Origin: Bolinopsis microptera
Taxonomy: Eukaryota > Ctenophora > Tentaculata > Lobata > Bolinopsidae
Reading direction: 5' to 3'
Length of the DNA: 64,000 bases
Assembly: GCF_026151205.1 (NCBI RefSeq)
Contig: NC_087078.1
Location: forward strand, 7,766,675-7,830,674
The translations under genes and the position numbers were made by a program. The notes beneath the pieces were generated by a model that saw only the letters and a list, made by a program, of their open reading frames with translations, did not search any database and was not told where the DNA came from. This document shows positions 19,158 through 29,893 of this stretch, one piece after another (within the stretch, counting starts at the first letter, position 1; each line of letters opens with the position of its first letter).

Positions 19158-19379
19158 ATGAGTTTAACGGAATTGAAATGTCCAACATGCGATGAAAGCC
19201 TTGCTCACAAACCGTCGCTGTCAGTCCTTCGTGATAACTTGGCACGACACATACAGAACAGAAGCTTATGTCACAGCAGTCGAGAACACATGGATATACA
19301 ACAAGACTGTCGAACCTACTATCCACTAAGATGTTCAGTACGCTTCGTACCTAAGCGTACTGAACATCTTAGTGGATAG
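19158..19379 (+). CDS. Small C2HC zinc-finger ORF (unit 2)
   Basis: Same 73-residue product as in unit 1, with Cys8, Cys11, His31 and Cys38. Its tail again overlaps the inverted repeat (19311-19387). Confidence 0.45.
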   Translation: MSLTELKCPTCDESLAHKPSLSVLRDNLARHIQNRSLCHSSREHMDIQQDCRTYYPLRCSVRFVPKRTEHLSG

Positions 19380-19387
19380 TAGGTTCG
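19311..19387. repeat. Perfect 35-bp inverted repeat with 7-base loop (unit 2)
   Basis: Arms 19311-19345 and 19353-19387, identical to those of unit 1. Confidence 0.95.
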
Positions 19388-19415
19388 TACCTAAGCGTAC
19401 TGAAAATATGATAAT

Positions 19416-19453
19416 ATGGTCAATGAACTTAAGAAACAAGAAAGAGACCGTAT
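19416..19453 (+). pseudogene. Myb-associated ORF, 5' fragment, cut by the LTR element
   Basis: Begins ATGGTCAATGAACTT and encodes MVNELKKQERDR, the open version of the upstream extension that is stopped in units 1 and 3. It is interrupted at the target site GTAT by the LTR element and continues at 29535. Before the insertion it would have been among the most complete copies of this ORF. Confidence 0.7.
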
Positions 19454-20168
19454 TGTTGGCCTCTCGGACCAACAAGACTCTTTAATTATAGGTGGTTCTT
19501 TGCTAAAGTTCCGTTCATTTGGCTGAATTTGTCGAATCCATTTCTCTTGAGAACTCAAAGTTTTAGTATACCTCCAAGTCAAATTTATTTTACGGATTGA
19601 AACAGTTAATTGAATTAACCCGTAAAACTCTTAGAGGCACAGCTACAGTGACTTTGGTCATTAGTCCAGTGAAACTTTCAAAATATAAAACACCGATAAC
19701 GGGTCTACTCAAATGATCCAGGGTGTTGGTCATTAGTCCGGAAAAACTTTCAAAATATACGGACCTTCAAATGATCTAGGGTACATAGTTCCGTGTTGAT
19801 TAGTTTCAATTGAGCATTAACGAGGCCACGCATCGGCGATCTAGAAGCCGTGTTTCGATGCGTCCTAACGGCAACAACACTGCCCGACTATATCTGAATT
19901 TTAGTTGCGATAGCAACAAGTTACAATTCGACGTAGCTCTCAAATAAGCTACAAGTTCAATTCAAATCGGAAATATAAAAAGACTCTCAATATATGAACC
20001 TTATCTCCGAAGGTATCTATTTAATGAATTAATGGAAGTATTATTATATTTGAAGGCTTATTATACTACTCTATCAATTGTGTTCAAGTAACCATAAATT
20101 GAGACTGATTAAAAGCTCTAAAATCTAAAATATAAAATATAAATAAACCACAACGGCAGTAGCCAAAA
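19454..20168 (+). repeat. 5' LTR
   Basis: Begins TGTTGGCCTCTC and ends GCAGTAGCCAAAA. A TATA box (TATAAAAA) is at 19974-19981, and a poly(A) signal AATAAA at 20142-20147 lies only 21 bases before the end. The termini are TG...AA and not the usual TG...CA. Confidence 0.92.
19974..19981 (+). promoter_or_regulatory. TATA box in the 5' LTR
   Basis: TATAAAAA sits about 190 bases before the LTR end, the expected place for a promoter driving full-length RNA. An identical copy is in the 3' LTR. No transcription data are available here. Confidence 0.55.
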
Positions 20169-20169
20169 C

Positions 20170-20187
20170 TGGTGCCCTCCTGGTTCG
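20170..20187 (+). other. Candidate primer-binding site
   Basis: One base after the 5' LTR the sequence starts TGGTGCCCTCCTGG. TGG at this position matches the complement of a tRNA CCA end. I could not assign the tRNA with confidence. Confidence 0.55.
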
Positions 20188-20224
20188 AATTGACGATCTC
20201 TTCATATCAAGCTTCAATTACTGA

Positions 20225-21067
20225 AACATCAAACTGAGTTGCAACAAACTTAACTACCACTATAATCAATTCTGCGTCTCTTGCGGATCTAGTTTGAAAA
20301 AGGCATTAATTTTTTGCTTCACTTGCCAAGAGTTAAATTCCCGCTGGAATAGATTTTGTCATAGTTGTGGGCAGCCACCAACCCCAACTGGAGAACAACC
20401 AGTGGAGAAGAAGGGTAACCGACGAACGGCATCACACTACAGACGTCCCAGAAGAGATCAGGAATGGTCCCAAGATCAATTTCCCTCGTCGTCTACTAGA
20501 GGTCAAAAGGAAACAAGAAGAGAAAAAGAAGAAACTTGTAAAGAATCAGAGAAGCAAGAAGAAGACAGATCTAAAAGTCAAAAGGAAACAAGAAGAGAAA
20601 AAGAAGAAACTTGTAAAGAATCAGAGAAGCAAGAAGAAGACAGATCTAGAGCTCAAAAGGAAACAAGAAGCGAAAATGGAGAAACTTGTAAAAAATCAGA
20701 GAGGCAAGAGGAAAGGACCAATCTGGAACCTGAATATGAAAACATCACACCCACAGGTAGCGATGTGGACTGGAGCCGGGTCAGCACTCCTTCAAGTTCA
20801 CCACCTCCTCCCCCGCCCCCTGAAAATCTCGACATAGAAATGGAAGAAACACAGTTGCCAGAATCGAGAGAAGAGGACAATGAAGCAGAACCAGAAGTCT
20901 GGTCAGAGGACCCGGTACGTACCACGGCTCATAGAAGGAAAAATGAAAAAAGGAAAGAGCCCAAAAAGAAGAAAAAGAAAGACTCTTCAGAGGGAAACCC
21001 CTCTAGCAACCGGACTTATCTGTCCAGCGAGGACGAATTTCTTGAATGTGATATACTTAGTAATTAA
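20225..21067 (+). CDS. Zinc-ribbon/charged-repeat protein of the LTR element
   Basis: The frame is open from the stop at 20222-20224 and has no ATG before its C-terminal third. It starts with three Cys pairs, CVSC (codons from 20273), CFTC and CHSC, like a double zinc ribbon, so the true start must come from a spliced leader, a non-ATG codon or recoding. After the ribbons are about three copies of a 25-residue charged repeat (QKETRREKEETCKESEKQEE in each), a proline run (seven Pro) and an acidic-then-basic tail with a KKKKKK run. No domain of gag is recognised. A nucleic-acid-binding or assembly role is possible but unproven. Confidence 0.6.
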   Translation, partial: NIKLSCNKLNYHYNQFCVSCGSSLKKALIFCFTCQELNSRWNRFCHSCGQPPTPTGEQPVEKKGNRRTASHYRRPRRDQEWSQDQFPSSSTRGQKETRREKEETCKESEKQEEDRSKSQKETRREKEETCKESEKQEEDRSRAQKETRSENGETCKKSERQEERTNLEPEYENITPTGSDVDWSRVSTPSSSPPPPPPPENLDIEMEETQLPESREEDNEAEPEVWSEDPVRTTAHRRKNEKRKEPKKKKKKDSSEGNPSSNRTYLSSEDEFLECDILSN

Positions 21068-21162
21068 TTTATTAATACTCAAAATCCAAAAAATCATGTA
21101 TTTAACGTGTTACCGGACAGCACCAAATTAACGGGGTTATAAATAAATATACCTATAGGTAT

Positions 21163-22803
21163 ATGTCGTTTGCAAGGACAGTGATAATACTGGTCTCCAT
21201 ATCGATAGCACAAACCACATTACTACTCTGCTCTGAAGAATATTGGGGAAAGCTATACAAGCTATCAGAAAATTTAAAATGTAAAAATAAAAATTACGTC
21301 AAATGGAATATTTCCATCTCGAAACGTAACATCGCGGAATACGAATCATCAGCCAATGCTCTGGTAATAATGTCTCGAACCTGTGAATCATATATGAATT
21401 TTGTGGGAGAAGAAACAATCACGGGTCAAAGTAAAAGAGTAATCACCGTAAACCCAGAAAGGGCTAAATATTTGATTGAAAATCGAAAATGTATTAACGA
21501 AAAAGGCGAGTATCAGACGAAATTGGTTAATAATTTTAAATGTGACTTCAAGTGGCTGGAACACAGATCTAAGACTACGACATCTTGTTATTTCTCGGAT
21601 GGAGTAGTAATAGCGAATCATGAGGATACATTTACGTCCTCTTTGTCAAATATGGAGGGTTGCGACTATAGTTCAGGGTACTGTCTAACGCATAACGGAA
21701 AACACGTCACTTGGAACGTGATTGAAAATGTAAAAAGGGCTTATTTGCCTGTGGGGCAGTTCAATGCAACACAAATCGAAAATAAGCTACTCGTACCCGA
21801 GTTGAGCATGTCATTTAATCTGCCGGAGAAAAATCCGGGTAACACTTGGATCGATAGGGATTTCCAAATAAAGGGAAGCCCAGCCCCGTATCAATTTAAT
21901 CTTGAAAATGTAAATTCGAATAATGAAAATGCGATCGAAGCAATAAGAGAGGAACTCGTCAATAAATTTAATTATCTTTTGGAATTAATTAAAAGTCCGT
22001 TGGCGCAAACGGAGTATTTGTGTAACGTGTACAACGACATATATGGGACTGAGAGAATCCTAGCTAAAATCGATCCAACTGATTACGTACAATGGAAGTT
22101 AAATAGGACGGATGTAAAGGCTAAATTGGTCGGAAAATTGTTAATGATTTATCCTTGTCTGCAAATTCAACATTATCGATTCATAAACGACACCAACAGG
22201 TGTTATAACGGGTTTAAAATAGAATATAATCTGCCGGAAAATGATGAATATATTGAGGGCTATGTAGATCCTAAGTATAACATGATAATGCCTACCGCAA
22301 TAGAGATAGATTGCCACAACTCTACGACCCAATATATGATAGTGAATAATACGATTCTCGCTCAAAGTGCTCATGGGTTACACGAAATGAGGGTAAACCT
22401 TTCAAAGGTAGATAGTATAGAGAGAGTGAAACTTACTGGAATACCCATGTCTCAAGATTTTCAAAATTGGATATATAATACGTCTGAATTGAAGCACCAT
22501 GATATTAGCGATTTAATCCTGAAGGAAATGGAAAATGAAATTAAACATTTGACGATTGATAAAACGGAAAAACGAAATGTAAAATCCAATTGGCGGGAAT
22601 TATTTGGAATATTCGGACAAAGTAAGTTTACGATTATATTTGCTATTATTAGCAACGTACAAAGCATCGCCGTATGGTATCTAATCTGGAGGTACATTAT
22701 AGTAGAATTAATTATAAGTAAATGCGTCGATCGCACCAGAGGACGGATCCCAGTTAATGAGGGCCCAATTGACCGGGATGGTCAGGATGATACGGAAGTT
22801 TAA
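21163..22803 (+). CDS. Type I membrane glycoprotein of the LTR element (env-like 1)
   Basis: 546 residues from an ATG. A hydrophobic signal peptide (residues ~5-22) is followed by a ~460-residue ectodomain with about a dozen cysteines and many N-glycosylation sequons (for example NIS, NAT, NRT, NDT, NST). A membrane span lies near residues 485-515 and an acidic cytosolic tail ends in DDTEV. No furin-like site or fusion peptide is visible. The sequence is not one I recognise; position and topology suggest a virion or cell-surface protein working with the fusion glycoprotein downstream. It could instead be a captured host receptor. Confidence 0.65.
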   Translation: MSFARTVIILVSISIAQTTLLLCSEEYWGKLYKLSENLKCKNKNYVKWNISISKRNIAEYESSANALVIMSRTCESYMNFVGEETITGQSKRVITVNPERAKYLIENRKCINEKGEYQTKLVNNFKCDFKWLEHRSKTTTSCYFSDGVVIANHEDTFTSSLSNMEGCDYSSGYCLTHNGKHVTWNVIENVKRAYLPVGQFNATQIENKLLVPELSMSFNLPEKNPGNTWIDRDFQIKGSPAPYQFNLENVNSNNENAIEAIREELVNKFNYLLELIKSPLAQTEYLCNVYNDIYGTERILAKIDPTDYVQWKLNRTDVKAKLVGKLLMIYPCLQIQHYRFINDTNRCYNGFKIEYNLPENDEYIEGYVDPKYNMIMPTAIEIDCHNSTTQYMIVNNTILAQSAHGLHEMRVNLSKVDSIERVKLTGIPMSQDFQNWIYNTSELKHHDISDLILKEMENEIKHLTIDKTEKRNVKSNWRELFGIFGQSKFTIIFAIISNVQSIAVWYLIWRYIIVELIISKCVDRTRGRIPVNEGPIDRDGQDDTEV

Positions 22804-23756
22804 TTCCTAGATTGACACTGTCCTTTATATGTACTGTAGTAAATGTGTATATTTAGATATTCTCCTTAGATATTCCATCAACATAAAGAATTAATTAGCT
22901 GGAATTTTAATTATGTTAGTAAATAAGGATAAGTAGTAACAAGGCTACTATGTATGATGAACATTATTTGAAGGAACTACTATAAATAAAGTATATTATA
23001 TATATATGAAGTATGAGTACTAGGACAGTATAACTATATTATGATTGACAATGAAACAATGATAATGAATAACAAGTGCACAATATGATATGTAATAAGA
23101 AATAAATATGCGCAATATGAAAGTATTTGTATGCAATGATATTAAAGTAAATGCACTATGTATGACAAAGATTATGTTATGAAAGATAATAAAGCGCAAT
23201 CATATAAAATGAAAGTGCACAAGATAGCTAGATTATGAATGAAGTGTATGCGCAAAGATATGATCAAGATGAGTAACAAGTAATGCACAATATGGCATGA
23301 TATTTAAATAAGTGATAAGCAAGCGCTATGAAAATATAAGATTAAAATAATGTGAGATATGAAACGCCATGAAACAAACCATATTTTAAATGCAGGCCGG
23401 CCAAATGGAATGGGAACTAGATTAAATGACGTCACCCGGAAAATTTTATTTATTTATTTATTTATTTAGTTCTTAATTTATTTATTTATTTGCGTGCACG
23501 ATTTGTGCCAAATCTGAGCTTAAATGTGCCAAAAGACTCTTTAGATCCAAGGCAAATTGAACGTGATTGTTGTCTGGAACCAAAATAATTACTTTAGCAT
23601 GACCTGTTTTGTATACTTTTCTAATAAAACACAAAAACCAAATTAGGCACGTAGTAATTTAGAATCTTGTATCTTTGTAACTAAAGTTACAGTTATAAAA
23701 ATATATTATAATATGACCGGTTAATGGTGGTTAATCTAAATACTTAAATAGCAAGG
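22804..23756 (+). other. Non-coding spacer of the LTR element
   Basis: No ORF of useful length. The first part is low-complexity with repeated GCACAATATGA/GCGCAATATGA words, followed by a TTTA-type microsatellite at about 23449-23493. This is where an autonomous relative might carry other genes, but no pol remnant is seen. Confidence 0.7.
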
Positions 23757-25862
23757 ATGCGGAAGAAAGGATATTATCAACAAGTTATCTTCTTTATCAG
23801 TTGCTGCATAGCACTTTCAAAAGGAATGATTGAAGAAATCAATTACCACCAGGAAAAGACTGGTCTCATCTTACAAGGAATCGGAATCGTCGCACCGGAG
23901 ATTACCCCTGTGCTGATATCAACATTTATAAAGATAAGAAATCCAATGAAAAATGTAAATGAATGCGAAAACATATGCAACATTGACGAAAATGTAATTT
24001 GGGGACTGCTAACCCACGTAAAATGTAATCATGTGCACAACAAAATCGGAGATCGCCAAAATGTAATAAAGGAAATCGAGAATTCGGTGGATAAAGACCT
24101 CGAAAATGATTCTAGACAAATGGCGGAACGATGTTTCAGAGAATGTATCAAAATACCGAAATGTAAAGCTTTCGGTGTGGAATATAGATCTGACGTCGTG
24201 ATCTGCATTCTGAGAGAAACCATCCCTACGTATCATCAGGATTCTAAAGGTTCAAGCGAATTCGACATGCGATGCATGGTCGAAGATAAGAATAAATTCT
24301 GTGGACAATATCAGTCCAGAATCAATATTCTGTTTGAAAAATCAAATGAAAATTTTGTCAATGAAACAATGACAAAAATAGAAAAACTTACTGAATTGAC
24401 GAAAAACAGGAAACAGAAAAGATTTGTTCAAGCAGCCCTTGGATTTTTTGCCGGTTCTATTCTTACTGGAGTGTTCAGTCTCTATGAACAATCGAAAATT
24501 TCAACTCAACTTAACGAGTTCTACGACCAATTTCAGGATTTCCGTAATGAAATGACGGACTATATTGAATCAGCAACGGAATTTCATGAAGGTATGTTGA
24601 AAATGTACAAAACTTTGGAATTAAATTCCCAGGAGTCATTGGAAGAATTAAGCTGTGAAATGATGAGTATAATTCGGTATAACCTGAAAAGAAATCAGCT
24701 TCAAGACTGGAAAGAGTATATATACACTCTCTCGAAAGATTTGATAGACGGCCAATTAAAAGGTCCCGTGAGTCCCACAATATTTAATGAAACGAATATA
24801 CTGGATTTGCTGAAACATAAAAGAATGGAGGACGCAATTTATGTTGACAACGTCCCTTTATTCTATCGTCTAGGCAGAATGTGGCTAGCTGATGTAAAGA
24901 AAGATGGAAAATTTTTCAATCTTCATGTGATTATATCGATACCTCAAATAAAAAGTGATGAAATGTACATCCTATATCAAGTGAACCAAGTAGGTTTGGT
25001 CAATGGTACTCAGTGCATGCGTCTGGATATACCGAATCACGTGTATCAAAAAGATGGCGAATTCTACGAATTGGAAAACAAAAATAATTGCGAGGTCCGA
25101 AGTGGGATAAAATTATGTCTGGGGAATAAAGAAAACGAAGAATCTGCAAAGAAAGCAAGGTGTTTAAACGCCGACCCAAGAATATGTAAAACGAATTTGG
25201 AAAAATGTCAAATGCGCAATATTCAGACTAGTTCTGGTGTCATGGTCAGAGCAATACATCATTTGAAAGCATCGACGCAAGAAAGTCCTACTGAATACGT
25301 GGATATTTCAAATGGAAGTACGGTGAAATTTCTCAACTACGATAAATATTATCAAATAGTTGCCGACAACTACATCATTAGATCAATTAAAGAGCCAATG
25401 TTTACGAAAGAACTAGAGTTGACGAACCCCGAAAAATGGGACGAATATTTGATATCTGAAAATGAATTGCTGAAAAGAACGAATCTAAGTCAGCTCAGTG
25501 CTCATGTAGTTCAACAAAAAGAAATTGTTAAACATATCAAATCTGAAAGAATCGGACTAAATCTGACAAAGGATCTAACTCTTGTGAATTTTATAGGAAT
25601 TTTAACAGTAATGATTAGCATTATAGTGGGAATCTTCCTTCTATACAGCTATTGGAAAAAACGGTTCAGGACAAGGAAAGTAGAAAAGGACATAGAATTA
25701 GAAGAACAAAATAAAGACGAACTTTTAGAAAGCGGAAAAGATGAAGAATCTGGAGTAGATGAAACTAATTTCAGTGGTGAATATAGCGAAGGACTGCGAC
25801 AAAGAGCGCCTAGTACAACTAAGGTGTATTCAGTGGACGATGTGAAAAACAGAGTCTTATGA
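23757..25862 (+). CDS. F-type (errantivirus/baculovirus-like) fusion glycoprotein of the LTR element (env-like 2)
   Basis: 701 residues from an ATG. Order: signal peptide (~1-22); a cysteine-rich part with a PAN/apple-like pattern (~120-175); a basic cleavage motif KQKR at 219-222; a hydrophobic fusion-peptide-like segment rich in Gly, Ala and Phe (~223-242); helical heptad-like stretches (~243-310); a long ectodomain; a membrane span (~609-632); and a ~65-residue charged cytosolic tail. This order is that of class I/F-type fusion proteins of errantiviruses and baculoviruses. I infer membrane fusion from layout, not from a database match. The stop TGA at 25860 is followed by CTAG and the next ORF continues in frame. 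Confidence 0.75.
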   Translation: MRKKGYYQQVIFFISCCIALSKGMIEEINYHQEKTGLILQGIGIVAPEITPVLISTFIKIRNPMKNVNECENICNIDENVIWGLLTHVKCNHVHNKIGDRQNVIKEIENSVDKDLENDSRQMAERCFRECIKIPKCKAFGVEYRSDVVICILRETIPTYHQDSKGSSEFDMRCMVEDKNKFCGQYQSRINILFEKSNENFVNETMTKIEKLTELTKNRKQKRFVQAALGFFAGSILTGVFSLYEQSKISTQLNEFYDQFQDFRNEMTDYIESATEFHEGMLKMYKTLELNSQESLEELSCEMMSIIRYNLKRNQLQDWKEYIYTLSKDLIDGQLKGPVSPTIFNETNILDLLKHKRMEDAIYVDNVPLFYRLGRMWLADVKKDGKFFNLHVIISIPQIKSDEMYILYQVNQVGLVNGTQCMRLDIPNHVYQKDGEFYELENKNNCEVRSGIKLCLGNKENEESAKKARCLNADPRICKTNLEKCQMRNIQTSSGVMVRAIHHLKASTQESPTEYVDISNGSTVKFLNYDKYYQIVADNYIIRSIKEPMFTKELELTNPEKWDEYLISENELLKRTNLSQLSAHVVQQKEIVKHIKSERIGLNLTKDLTLVNFIGILTVMISIIVGIFLLYSYWKKRFRTRKVEKDIELEEQNKDELLESGKDEESGVDETNFSGEYSEGLRQRAPSTTKVYSVDDVKNRVL

Positions 25863-25866
25863 CTAG
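25860..25866 (+). promoter_or_regulatory. Candidate stop-codon readthrough site (TGACTAG)
   Basis: The glycoprotein stop codon and following bases read TGACTAG. UGA followed by CUAG is the best known readthrough context in animal mRNAs and several viruses. The same frame stays open for another 316 codons, to 26810. Readthrough itself is inferred. Confidence 0.6.
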
Positions 25867-26810
25867 ACGAAGTAGAAGAATCAAATTTAAACTTGAACTG
25901 GAACCTAAATTGCGAAAATATAAATTGTGGAAACGTGCCAGAAAAAGAGGTAAAGAAAGCTGTAAATTTACATTACGAAAATGTAAATGATAGTGTTCAA
26001 GATGTCAGCGACTGGGAAAGTGAATCAAAGAATACAATAGACTCAAATAGTGCTTCGGATATACACGAGGAACTGGAGGAATTGAACATCGAGCATGACG
26101 CTTCTAACGATGATAATTTGGAACAACTACACAAAGAAGAGACGAAACGAGAAACAGAAATACCAATAGAAATATGGGTGATGATATTTAATTACCTCAC
26201 CATCAAGCAATTACTGAAAGTACGAGAATTAAATAAACGATTCAGTAGTTTGGTGAAGGATTACTTGCGGAACCCTACCAATGTAATAATGGAAAATTTT
26301 AAATTTTATAGTTACGAAACGTTCTATTTAACCGAAATACTTATAGAAGATCAAATGTGTTGGACGAATATGAAAACTAAAATTGGAAAGTTTGCCATGA
26401 AATACATGATCATGAAAGGGGTGTACTGCAGCGCCATCAATAAAGTGGAAAAACCATACTTGAGGTTTTTAAGAACACGGTGTCTACCATTGTATACTTT
26501 CAAGGACCGGCTAAGAAGCTTCACTCCTAAAGCGTCTGACGACGAAGTGATCATAAGATGGAAGGAATATAAGAAGAATTCTTGGGCGGATATTTCCCCA
26601 TTGGAAAAATCATGCATTAAAATGGAATGCAAGTTCCAAACTTTCTTAACGAAACTATATATGAATAAATATGGTACGTCTCTACCGATAACTACGAATC
26701 GGGAAAAGATCCAAAGAATAGGCAAAATGCTGAAAACCGAAGAGAATAAAAACTTCAATCTTCTTCAAGCTATAAAATATAGACCCCCGATTGAAGTTCT
26801 AATAGGGTAA
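25863..26810 (+). CDS. F-box protein 1 of the LTR element, in frame after the fusion glycoprotein
   Basis: The frame is open directly after the upstream TGA and has no ATG before the F-box itself. A ~100-residue acidic linker leads to the F-box (starting IPIEIWVMIFNYL, with a following L-x-V-R-x-L-N-K-R-F), and then ~180 residues shared with the next ORF. Shared motifs include Y-E-T-F/Y-Y-L, a K-F-A-M/I-K helix, RTRCL and I-K-M-E-C-K-F. F-boxes bind Skp1 of SCF ubiquitin ligases. By readthrough the domain would form the cytosolic tail of the membrane glycoprotein; by splicing it could be made alone. The substrate is unknown. Confidence 0.7.
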   Translation, partial: LDEVEESNLNLNWNLNCENINCGNVPEKEVKKAVNLHYENVNDSVQDVSDWESESKNTIDSNSASDIHEELEELNIEHDASNDDNLEQLHKEETKRETEIPIEIWVMIFNYLTIKQLLKVRELNKRFSSLVKDYLRNPTNVIMENFKFYSYETFYLTEILIEDQMCWTNMKTKIGKFAMKYMIMKGVYCSAINKVEKPYLRFLRTRCLPLYTFKDRLRSFTPKASDDEVIIRWKEYKKNSWADISPLEKSCIKMECKFQTFLTKLYMNKYGTSLPITTNREKIQRIGKMLKTEENKNFNLLQAIKYRPPIEVLIG

Positions 26811-26980
26811 TCAAACCGTAAAAAGGAAAATGTAAAATGTAAAATGTAAATCAAACGTAATATGTCAAACGTAATATCACAACTCACCAACGGGTTCAAA
26901 ATTATAGAAACAGGCTCTTTCGTCATTTCCATTATCACTTTAATTAAAGTTTTCTAACCACATATTGATCAGCAAAGCAA

Positions 26981-27661
26981 ATGGAAAATACATCAGAAGA
27001 GATACCTTCAAAAACAGAAGAAATTCAAAGTCTATCCATTAAAGAAGTCAAATCAGTTTCCAACTGTAATCTACCTATTGAACTATGGCATATTATTTTG
27101 ACAAGGCTGAATCTACGTGATTTACTCAAAGCCAGGTTAATTTGCAAAAGGATGGGGAAAATCGTCTCACAATATTTGCGAGACACAACAAGTGGATATC
27201 CAGATCTCTTCAGCTTCTATAATTATGAAACATATTATCTCTTTGACATTCTAATGGAGAACGAGATGTATTGGACCAGGATACAAACGAATATTGGAAA
27301 ATTCGCGATAAAACTCCTAACCATGAGAGGAGCGTATAATGCAGCAGTATTAGGACAAAAGAAATGTTATGCTCGTTTTGTCAGAACTAGATGTCTAACA
27401 TTTGAAAAATACAAGTCATTATTCCCAAATGAATCGGACTGGGTTATCCTAGAACGTTGGGGAAAGTATAAACACGAGTCATGGACGAAATTGTCAAGAA
27501 TCGAAAAATCAATTATTAAGATGGAATGCAAATTCGATTATTATTTAAAGTACCAATACTGTAAAGCTTATGGAACCTGGTTGTCTATTACAATGACAGA
27601 AGAGAAAATAAAAGAAATCAGTAAAATGATGAAATACGAAGATAAGCAATACGGTAAATGA
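26981..27661 (+). CDS. F-box protein 2 of the LTR element
   Basis: 226 residues with its own ATG. The F-box spans about 30-66 (LPIELWHIILTRL, then LLKARLICKRM). The rest aligns with F-box protein 1 along its whole length, so the two arose by tandem duplication inside the element or an ancestor. It lacks the long acidic linker and is separated from F-box 1 by 170 bases, so it would be a free cytosolic protein. Two diverged but intact copies suggest each is useful to the element. Role in ubiquitin-mediated turnover of a host or viral protein is inference. Confidence 0.7.
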   Translation: MENTSEEIPSKTEEIQSLSIKEVKSVSNCNLPIELWHIILTRLNLRDLLKARLICKRMGKIVSQYLRDTTSGYPDLFSFYNYETYYLFDILMENEMYWTRIQTNIGKFAIKLLTMRGAYNAAVLGQKKCYARFVRTRCLTFEKYKSLFPNESDWVILERWGKYKHESWTKLSRIEKSIIKMECKFDYYLKYQYCKAYGTWLSITMTEEKIKEISKMMKYEDKQYGK

Positions 27662-28819
27662 GTTCATCGCATAACTATGCGTGAATCTGCATTTAGATAA
27701 AGAATGATGAAAAATGTAAATATTGAAAAATTTGAAACTTAAAATATAAAACTAAAAACGGGCAGGTTTAAAGATGAGGAAGTTAGATAAGTAAAGGATC
27801 GAACTCAGCCCAACTGAGATCCTAAACAATAAATATATGTATACAGTTTAAATTGTGAAAGATATTATAAGACTTCAATAAGTTAAACACTTATTAAGTT
27901 AAGTAAGAAATTAATTAAATTAATAAGTAAGAATAAGTTAAAAGGCAAATAAGTTAAATATCCGATAAATTGAAAGTAGTTTGTCAAAGGACTATTAATT
28001 TAGTACCATTTCAGAGCCTTTTAAGTTTATTGAAGTCTACTGACCAAAATGGCCCATCCAGGGGTTATGATCAAGTTATTTCATAGGTTCTTAAATAGTT
28101 CTTGAATAGAAAATTACAAGCTAGTAGATCTTCTCGTTTAGCCGGTCTATTGAGATTCTGGATCGCAACCGTATCCCCTCTCTGCACAGGAACATTTCCT
28201 ACGAAGACCGTAGACGCATCGTTATCGGGACGTAACCCGAATCTGTTTCGTATCGGGACGTAACCCCCGTTGAGAAGAAGAAGAAAGAAGAAAGAAGAGG
28301 GAATGGAAAGAATTATAATTGTAGCAATTCGTTACCGGGACGTAACCCGACTTTAAAAGCATCGCAATCAGGGCGTAACCTGACCCCCGTTGTCGTCGAA
28401 GAAAGAAGACCAAAGAAAAGGAAAGGAAAGGAAGAAAAAAAAAAAAAAGAGAAAAGAAAAGAAAAGAAAAATACTACTTGTAATAGTGGTGAGCGGCCCT
28501 AATGGCGAATTAGGTATTAATATATGTTAACAGTTTTAAGAAATGTTGATCAGCCCTAATGGCTAAATTATAGTAAATATTCTCCTATTTGAAGGAGAGG
28601 AAAACTTTGGTGTTAGATGATGATTATAATTAGGAGACCTAGGTTCTAAAATTCAGAGTCTTAAAATTTAAGGATGTCAAGGAAAATTTAATAGAAGAAA
28701 AGAAGAAGACGAAGAAGAAGAAGAAATATTTCATTAGAATAGTACGAGTAAGCCCTCGGTTGGCGAATCGGCTAATCGGTGAAATGATCAAATTAAAAAC
28801 TCTATGAAAAAGGGGATCG
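27662..28819 (+). other. 3' non-coding region of the LTR element with polypurine tract
   Basis: Contains four or five copies of GGGACGTAACCC-like words (28220-28385), purine-rich GAAGAA runs, and a repeated GCCCTAATGGC motif (28495-28565). The tract GAAAAAGGGGA at 28806-28816, three bases before the 3' LTR, is the polypurine tract candidate. No ORF is supported. Confidence 0.7.
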
Positions 28820-29534
28820 TGTTGGCCTCTCGGACCAACAAGACTCTTTAATTATAGGTGGTTCTTTGCTAAAGTTCCGTTCATTTGGCTGAATTTGTCG
28901 AATCCATTTCTCTTGAGAACTCAAAGTTTTAGTATACCTCCAAGTCAAATTTATTTTACGGATTGAAACAGTTAATTGAATTAACCCGTAAAACTCTTAG
29001 AGGCACAGCTACAGTGACTTTGGTCATTAGTCCAGTGAAACTTTCAAAATATAAAACACCGATAACGGGTCTACTCAAATGATCCAGGGTGTTGGTCATT
29101 AGTCCGGAAAAACTTTCAAAATATACGGACCTTCAAATGATCTAGGGTACATAGTTCCGTGTTGATTAGTTTCAATTGAGCATTAACGAGGCCACGCATC
29201 GGCGATCTAGAAGCCGTGTTTCGATGCGTCCTAACGGCAACAACACTGCCCGACTATATCTGAATTTTAGTTGCGATAGCAACAAGTTACAATTCGACGT
29301 AGCTCTCAAATAAGCTACAAGTTCAATTCAAATCGGAAATATAAAAAGACTCTCAATATATGAACCTTATCTCCGAAGGTATCTATTTAATGAATTAATG
29401 GAAGTATTATTATATTTGAAGGCTTATTATACTACTCTATCAATTGTGTTCAAGTAACCATAAATTGAGACTGATTAAAAGCTCTAAAATCTAAAATATA
29501 AAATATAAATAAACTACAACGGCAGTAGCCAAAA
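28820..29534 (+). repeat. 3' LTR
   Basis: Same 715-bp length as the 5' LTR; the only difference I find is T at 29515. The GTAT target duplication follows directly. Confidence 0.92.
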
Positions 29535-29893
29535 GTATGAAATATAGAAAAGCTACCGGAGGTGGGCCAGCCAGAAAGACTCAGGCTCTCTTAGAAGCCG
29601 AAACTGCATGCTTGTCAAATCTACCACTAGAGCAAATAACTGGAATCGAAGGAGGACATGAGAGCGTCTCTCATAAGTTCCTACGCGACACTCTCCCCAC
29701 TACACTAATGTCACAGATATTAGAGATATATCAATTTTCATATATCCTAGAACTTTGGAAGATGCCGGATTTTGCTCAGAAAACTTTTAATTTTCACGAA
29801 AAGACAATTAATTTGATAAGAAGAGTATCAAACACCCTTACAAGTCACGTGACAGACGTTATCCGATCACGTGACAGCTTTTATATTGGTTAG
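29535..29893 (+). pseudogene. Myb-associated ORF, 3' fragment (unit 2)
   Basis: Continues the ORF cut at 19453. It encodes the KATGGGPARK segment and, because the 63-bp segment found in units 1, 3 and 4 is absent, reads on past KMPDF to a C-terminus ending DSFYIG. A start at 29537 would be fortuitous, since this ATG belongs to the interrupted frame. Confidence 0.65.

Follow-up and report, generated by a model that had tools for sequence, protein, structure and literature searches.

A young LTR element of Bolinopsis microptera with envelope and F-box genes is best read as an internal deletion derivative of a Ty3/gypsy-type family

How does a retroelement that looks complete and recently inserted come to encode membrane glycoproteins and F-box proteins, but no gag or pol? 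The question is raised by a long terminal repeat (LTR) element of 10.09 kb at positions 19450–29538 of a 64,000-nucleotide stretch of the genome of the ctenophore Bolinopsis microptera (C7:7766675–7830674; "the window" refers to this whole stretch, and coordinates without a contig name are positions within it). A preliminary description of the locus had proposed a segmented or split-genome agent, or one that depends on a helper. We arrive at a different answer: the window copy is very probably a pol-deleted, dead-end provirus of a large envelope-carrying Ty3/gypsy-type family. A pol-bearing contig of the same family, deletion junctions that are private to each copy, and a relative that holds pol, both glycoproteins, and an F-box gene in one genome together make an internal deletion derivative the best reading.

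The terminal features of the element and its deletion junction are:

19450..19453, no strand: target site duplication GTAT, 5' copy (from the sequence)
19454..20168, plus strand: 5' LTR, TGTTGG...CCAAAA (from the LTR comparison)
20169..20235, plus strand: leader of 67 nucleotides (nt) with a primer-site candidate (TGG-type) from 20170; 100% identical in the ten env-bearing copies and in contig C184
20235..20236, plus strand: deletion junction; C184 sequence is absent from position 68 after the LTR onward
28806..28816, plus strand: purine tract 5' of the 3' LTR (from the sequence; conserved in 9/9 other copies)
28820..29534, plus strand: 3' LTR (from the LTR comparison)
29535..29538, no strand: target site duplication GTAT, 3' copy (from the sequence)

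The two LTRs of 715 bp each differ by one mismatch and no gaps, and the last 14 nt ahead of the 3' LTR are identical in all nine other env-bearing copies. With its 4-bp duplication, the element is hence complete and young, as the preliminary description had stated, and it lacks gag and pol: neither was recognised by eye among the 31 interior stop-to-stop frames of at least 60 amino acids (aa), and the interior matches the gag-pol DNA of the family solely in the first 67 nt after the LTR. Pfam was run on six interior frames or open reading frames (ORFs) of this copy. A primer tRNA was not identified: the 17-nt sequence complementary to the candidate site is present at 13 genomic places, all of them leaders of the family or of its older relatives.

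Searching the genome (265 Mb, 232 contigs) with the LTR and the interior, as the preliminary description had suggested, yielded nine other env-bearing copies and also a pol-bearing relative with the same LTR and leader, the unplaced contig C184. Copies carry the names of their contigs (C12a, C12b, etc.), and the C3 relative (C3:6113500) is not to be confused with the young C3 copy (C3:7525644). The LTR search gave 30 places, of which 23 lie in the ten env-bearing elements including the window copy and one on C184. Two belong to older relatives with gag pieces and LTRs of 90–91% identity (C7:6142951 and C11:2581070), and four carry no family interior in the flanks fetched (the place on C8 is a solo LTR flanked by a TAAT duplication, and that on C129 lies at the contig start). 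An exact 4-bp duplication flanks 8/10 env-bearing copies—C12d agrees in three of four bases and C11 stands outside the comparison, which makes eight of the nine testable. The LTRs could be compared in seven uninterrupted pairs (window 1 difference, C12a 0, C7b 1, C6 1 plus 2 gaps, C2 4, C12c 1, C12d 0); since these differ at 0–4 sites, the insertions are recent. Among the older relatives, the one on C11 (L041, C11:2572000–2581900) has a gag piece that shares 99% identity with the young family across 778 nt, whereas the gag piece of the one on C7 (L040, C7:6142000–6151900) reaches 87%; with LTRs at about 90–91% and a gag piece at 99%, the C11 relative looks as if it had recombined.

C184 shares LTR, leader, and gag with the window family. 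Its gag is a 508-aa frame (Pfam PNMA 9.9e-6, Retrotrans_gag 1.5e-4), and its pol an open frame that overlaps the end of gag in another frame and continues for 1399 aa or more, up to the contig end. The protease match (3.1e-6) lies 0.1 below the cut-off at 28.1 versus 28.2 bits, while reverse transcriptase (RT; 2.5e-24), RNaseH (9.1e-23), the integrase zinc-binding domain (2e-14), and the integrase core (7.7e-11) are all above theirs. Among 24 matches of the RT to solved structures, the best are 4ol8 (3.4e-49), which we take to be Ty3 RT, and 7q5b (Transposon Ty3-G, 7.7e-49), followed by 8r0s (5.3e-33). The order of the pol domains bears out the relation to gypsy elements that had been proposed earlier. 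By DNA search, the RT–integrase part of the family is located at this one place only.

The env-bearing copies differ in how they lost this part. Their junctions are given as the last nt kept after the LTR in C184 numbering, followed by the window position of the rejoin, with ends as BLAST gives them:

Window copy: 67/20236
C7b: about 96–100/20463, 5-nt overlap
C12c: 115/20491, 1-nt overlap; second deletion 20770/21514
C12a: 2147/20680, 1-nt overlap
C11: 2625/20743, 0-nt overlap
C6: about 118–122/20843, 6-nt overlap
C12d: 375/21221, 22-nt filler
C12b: 102/21340, 1-nt overlap
C2: about 2664–2670/21515, 7-nt overlap
C3 copy (C3:7525644): 1165/22575, 12-nt filler

All ten junctions differ, and no pair is common to two copies. 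Nine of them are comparable on both sides, seven with overlaps of 0–7 nt and two with fillers of 12 or 22 nt; for the window junction, the 3' partner is merely presumed to be parental, as 20236–20462 is found nowhere else. RT, RNaseH, and integrase are absent from 10/10 copies, and no part of the RT domain is kept in any of them. Five of the nine other copies retain 375–2670 nt of gag-pol after the LTR, at 99.7–100% identity to C184; between them, these stretches cover gag (zinc knuckles by eye), the protease region, and what follows, to within about 100 nt of the RT domain. C12b and C2 have a small indel near 22939/23009 in common but differ at the pol junction, an argument for independent losses of pol in the individual copies. 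The preliminary description had named full-length pol-bearing copies, of which this one would be a simple deletion derivative, as the finding that would speak against its proposal. This is largely what emerged: a pol-bearing contig is present and the window copy is one of ten private deletions, although an end-to-end intact copy of the family was not seen.

Since C184 ends before env, the claim of a single genome rests on the C3 relative, for which the genes of the window copy serve as reference:

20228..21064, plus strand: double zinc ribbon with a charged, proline-/lysine-rich (basic) tail, 279 aa (Pfam DZR 2.3e-7)
21163..22803, plus strand: glycoprotein 1, 546 aa, class III-like (gB/Monjiviricetes; profile similarity below curated cut-offs)
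23757..25862, plus strand: glycoprotein 2, 701 aa, class I-like (from PF00523 matches of homologues)
25863..26810, plus strand: F-box gene 1, a 315-aa frame with its first ATG at 26181 (209 aa; Pfam F-box)
26981..27661, plus strand: F-box gene 2, 226 aa (Pfam F-box 2.5e-7, above cut-off)

On one strand, the C3 relative carries the end of gag (zinc knuckles, 3.5e-14), pol, a basic proline-rich ORF, a repeat-rich stretch, glycoprotein 1, glycoprotein 2, and an F-box gene—an order read from the interior, the LTRs lying beyond the part reached. Its 1472-aa pol is 44% identical to that of the family, glycoprotein 1 37%, glycoprotein 2 34%, and the F-box protein 28% (155 residues). The order protease–RT–RNaseH–integrase holds in both C184 and the C3 relative, the window copy being without pol. 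Among the matches listed, at least ten others to pol and to glycoprotein 2 sit no more than about 10 kb apart on the same strand; glycoprotein 2 thus looks like the standard env of a broader gypsy group. Gag, pol, basic ORF, both glycoproteins, and F-box gene thus stand in one genome in the C3 relative, and C184 and the derivative copies suggest the same for the parent of the window family, with one or more F-box genes. This parent would be about 15.8 kb or more in length (715 + 5758 + 8584 + 715) if the window interior is all parental; no env-bearing copy is longer than about 12.1 kb, later insertions set aside.

Most likely, the deletion formed during reverse transcription of the parental RNA by a template jump. 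The reverse transcriptase would jump between the leader and a site ahead of the genes for the two glycoproteins, thereby dropping gag-pol; the shortened DNA would be integrated by enzymes from the parental particle, and the resulting pol-less provirus could not recopy itself without help. Alternatively, full elements might have inserted and host DNA repair might have deleted pol later at each site. Short overlaps and fillers are typical of end joining, and the short overlaps and the fillers of 12–22 nt found here agree with that; however, the seven uninterrupted LTR pairs with their 0–4 differences leave little time for it, and RT–integrase is removed yet both ends are kept in 10/10 copies, so that we hold later repair to be unlikely. 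Further from the data stands a satellite, a pol-less lineage that would draw on a helper's enzymes to multiply. That there are ten pol-less copies, all young, and that 4-bp duplications flank eight of the nine testable ones might suggest a satellite, but it should repeat one junction at several sites, and in this one assembly 10/10 junctions differ. This makes a satellite very unlikely, and the self-standing helper-dependent agent of the preliminary description gives way to ten copies with private internal deletions. Quite improbable, too, is a genome split into a gag-pol RNA of the C184 type and an env/F-box RNA of the window type, whose mosaics would stem from jumps between co-packaged RNAs. 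The env side of C184 is indeed missing from the assembly, and RT–integrase and env of the family stand on no common contig. Yet in the C3 relative the genes follow one another in order at a single locus—which also speaks against the segmented agent proposed before—and the leader-plus-zinc-ribbon structure of the window copy, though expected of a parental env segment, occurs in no second copy. An assembly artefact, finally, is extremely improbable: near-identical repeats do assemble poorly and the short contigs C184 and C129 end or begin within element sequence, but the ten env-bearing copies lie on contigs of 15–23 Mb with differing flanking 4-mers and a junction of their own each.

Several points weigh against a template-jump derivative of a one-genome parent. 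C184 ends inside or just after pol, short of any env gene, and the parent is therefore unseen end to end. The overlaps of 0–1 nt in four copies and the fillers in two also fit end joining after integration. The stretch 20236–20462, which forms the first part of the zinc-ribbon frame, is found in no other copy, and the accessory ORF gives no convincing alignment with that of the C3 relative (E 0.031, 17 residues). Also, the loss of pol in 10/10 env-bearing copies is more than one would expect from random deletion and calls for an extra cause. A length limit on copying or packaging, a purging of intact insertions, or assembly loss would each explain it equally. One may go further and picture the parent as a still infectious, very large gypsy-type virus with two classes of fusion machine and with F-box proteins directed against silencing. 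Such a virus would persist largely away from the assembled chromosomes, either exogenously or at low frequency, and, being too long for most attempts to copy and integrate it whole, would leave hardly anything but pol-deleted proviruses in the germline. As a whole, we regard this picture as doubtful.

The presence of envelope and F-box genes, stated in the preliminary description, is confirmed with two genes of each kind. For glycoprotein 1, a class III nature is weakly suggested for the lineage by repeated profile matches below cut-off. The window protein matches the gB profile PF00606 at 6.2e-5 (23 versus 43 bits, i.e., under the curated cut-off), its homologues do so at 3.3e-5, 0.0055, and 1.5e-6 (all below cut-off), and the C3 relative's protein matches PF24664, Monjiviricetes_fusion, at 2e-6, 0.5 under the cut-off (26.5 versus 27 bits). 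For one homologue there is, in addition, a match to a Borna virus G profile (2e-4). Against the PDB, a four-sequence profile gave nine matches up to E 1, three of them below 0.001 and the best at 1e-6 (gB); by name, these are five glycoprotein B, three GP110 or BALF4, and one ORF8. The structure model was too poor for a fold search (mean predicted local distance difference test score 35). Glycoprotein 1 is uninterrupted at full length in 2/10 copies (window and C11). The same 836-bp insert (98%) is present in glycoprotein 1 of C6 (L017:3173–4007) and in gag of the C3 copy (L019, about 1917–2753), and is probably another young mobile element.

Glycoprotein 2 bears a furin-like KNRKQKR motif followed by a hydrophobic stretch and a C-terminal membrane segment (by eye), and its N-terminal part is predicted to adopt a PAN/apple-like fold (model residues about 80–180). 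The window protein itself has no match to F0, the paramyxovirus F family, in Pfam; PF00523 matches one of six homologues at 6.3e-6 and the C3 relative's protein at 4e-10, above cut-off (39 versus 29.8 bits). This latter match, and the homology to the matched protein, point to a class I-like lineage. Among Pfam matches up to 0.1 for the six homologues and the C3 relative, Fusion_gly is present and Baculo_F, which we take to be the Pfam name for the baculovirus-F type Env, is not. The ten copies of the gene are near-identical (≥99%) and free of stops, the young C3 copy having a 24-nt indel, and it is the only one of four genes open in 10/10 copies. Changes count six amino-acid to eight silent in glycoprotein 2 and 32 to 12 in the other three genes together, as small raw counts. 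Both glycoproteins may act as fusion proteins for entry. Short contigs of 903–4872 bp hold homologues (P0001, P0006, P0007, P0009, P0010) of both glycoproteins and of F-box 2; possibly these contigs are transcript assemblies, in which case the genes would be transcribed.

The F-box domain is above the Pfam cut-off in both window frames. F-box 1 reaches 1.6e-5 on the long frame 25863–26807 and 0.013 on the ATG-started ORF; its frame is open in 8/10 copies, that of F-box 2 in 9/10. At E 0.001, F-box 2 finds 23 matches, 22 in the family's two F-box genes and one in the C3 relative, which makes it an old accessory gene of the lineage and not one captured by the window copy. The C3 relative's F-box is below cut-off (15.4 versus 20.5 bits), yet aligns to F-box 2 at 1e-11. 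Such proteins may serve as adaptors through which host SCF ubiquitin ligases are turned against a host factor, perhaps one of the silencing machinery. Near its start, the zinc-ribbon frame lacks an ATG; it is an accessory ORF, perhaps a truncated one, and parts of 20463–21110 are present in five of the nine other copies.

Around the insertion, inverted and direct repeats lie immediately upstream at 19301–19420 (by eye). Just 3' of it, the ORF 30230–30472 matches the alpha-kinase family (Pfam, 5.3e-18), and a 118-aa ORF at 29537, ahead of this alpha-kinase-like ORF, has no Pfam match up to 0.1.

In its Gag, its order of protease, RT, RNaseH, and integrase, and its env after pol, the family resembles the envelope-carrying Ty3/gypsy elements (errantiviruses, Metaviridae); LTRs, 4-bp duplication, and Ty3 among the best RT matches are further likenesses to Metaviridae. 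Errantivirus Env, according to PMC12992720, is of the baculovirus-F type. Here, in contrast, Pfam ties the relative's glycoprotein 2 to paramyxovirus F0, and a class III-like glycoprotein and F-box genes stand beside it. Gypsy or BEL elements have been reported with glycoproteins of type III or of Jingchuvirales (PMC13172572, PMC10084718, PMC12440569). Glycoprotein 1, being gB/Monjiviricetes-like, is akin to the type III (chuvirus-like) glycoproteins of gypsy and BEL/Pao elements such as Anakin; in the present family, it is accompanied by a second, class I-like glycoprotein and by F-box genes. This combination was not reported in the literature searched, the coverage of which is incomplete; gypsy elements with type III glycoproteins are already known, and the pairing is the part that we have not seen in print. 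Recurrent non-autonomous LTR forms such as LARD, TRIM, and BARE-2 also combine LTRs and a duplication with the lack of a full gag-pol, whereas each copy here has a private deletion and retains env and F-box sequence. Defective proviruses and defective-interfering retroviral genomes are private internal deletions of a co-existing parent with the ends kept, as here; the present copies, however, give no sign that they interfere or that any one deleted form was copied repeatedly.

An element without gag and pol is as such an ordinary deletion derivative, and env without pol need not mean a split genome. The unusual part would be the parent, with a class III-like and a class I-like glycoprotein together, and with F-box genes apparently retained across lineages that share 44% identity in pol. 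The ten pol-deleted proviruses, each with its own junction, and the single contig with pol would form a natural archive of how deletions arise as retroviruses are copied. A retroelement with these two glycoproteins, and with F-box genes retained in two lineages, offers a route to ask how retroelements become infectious and whether they use the host ubiquitin system.

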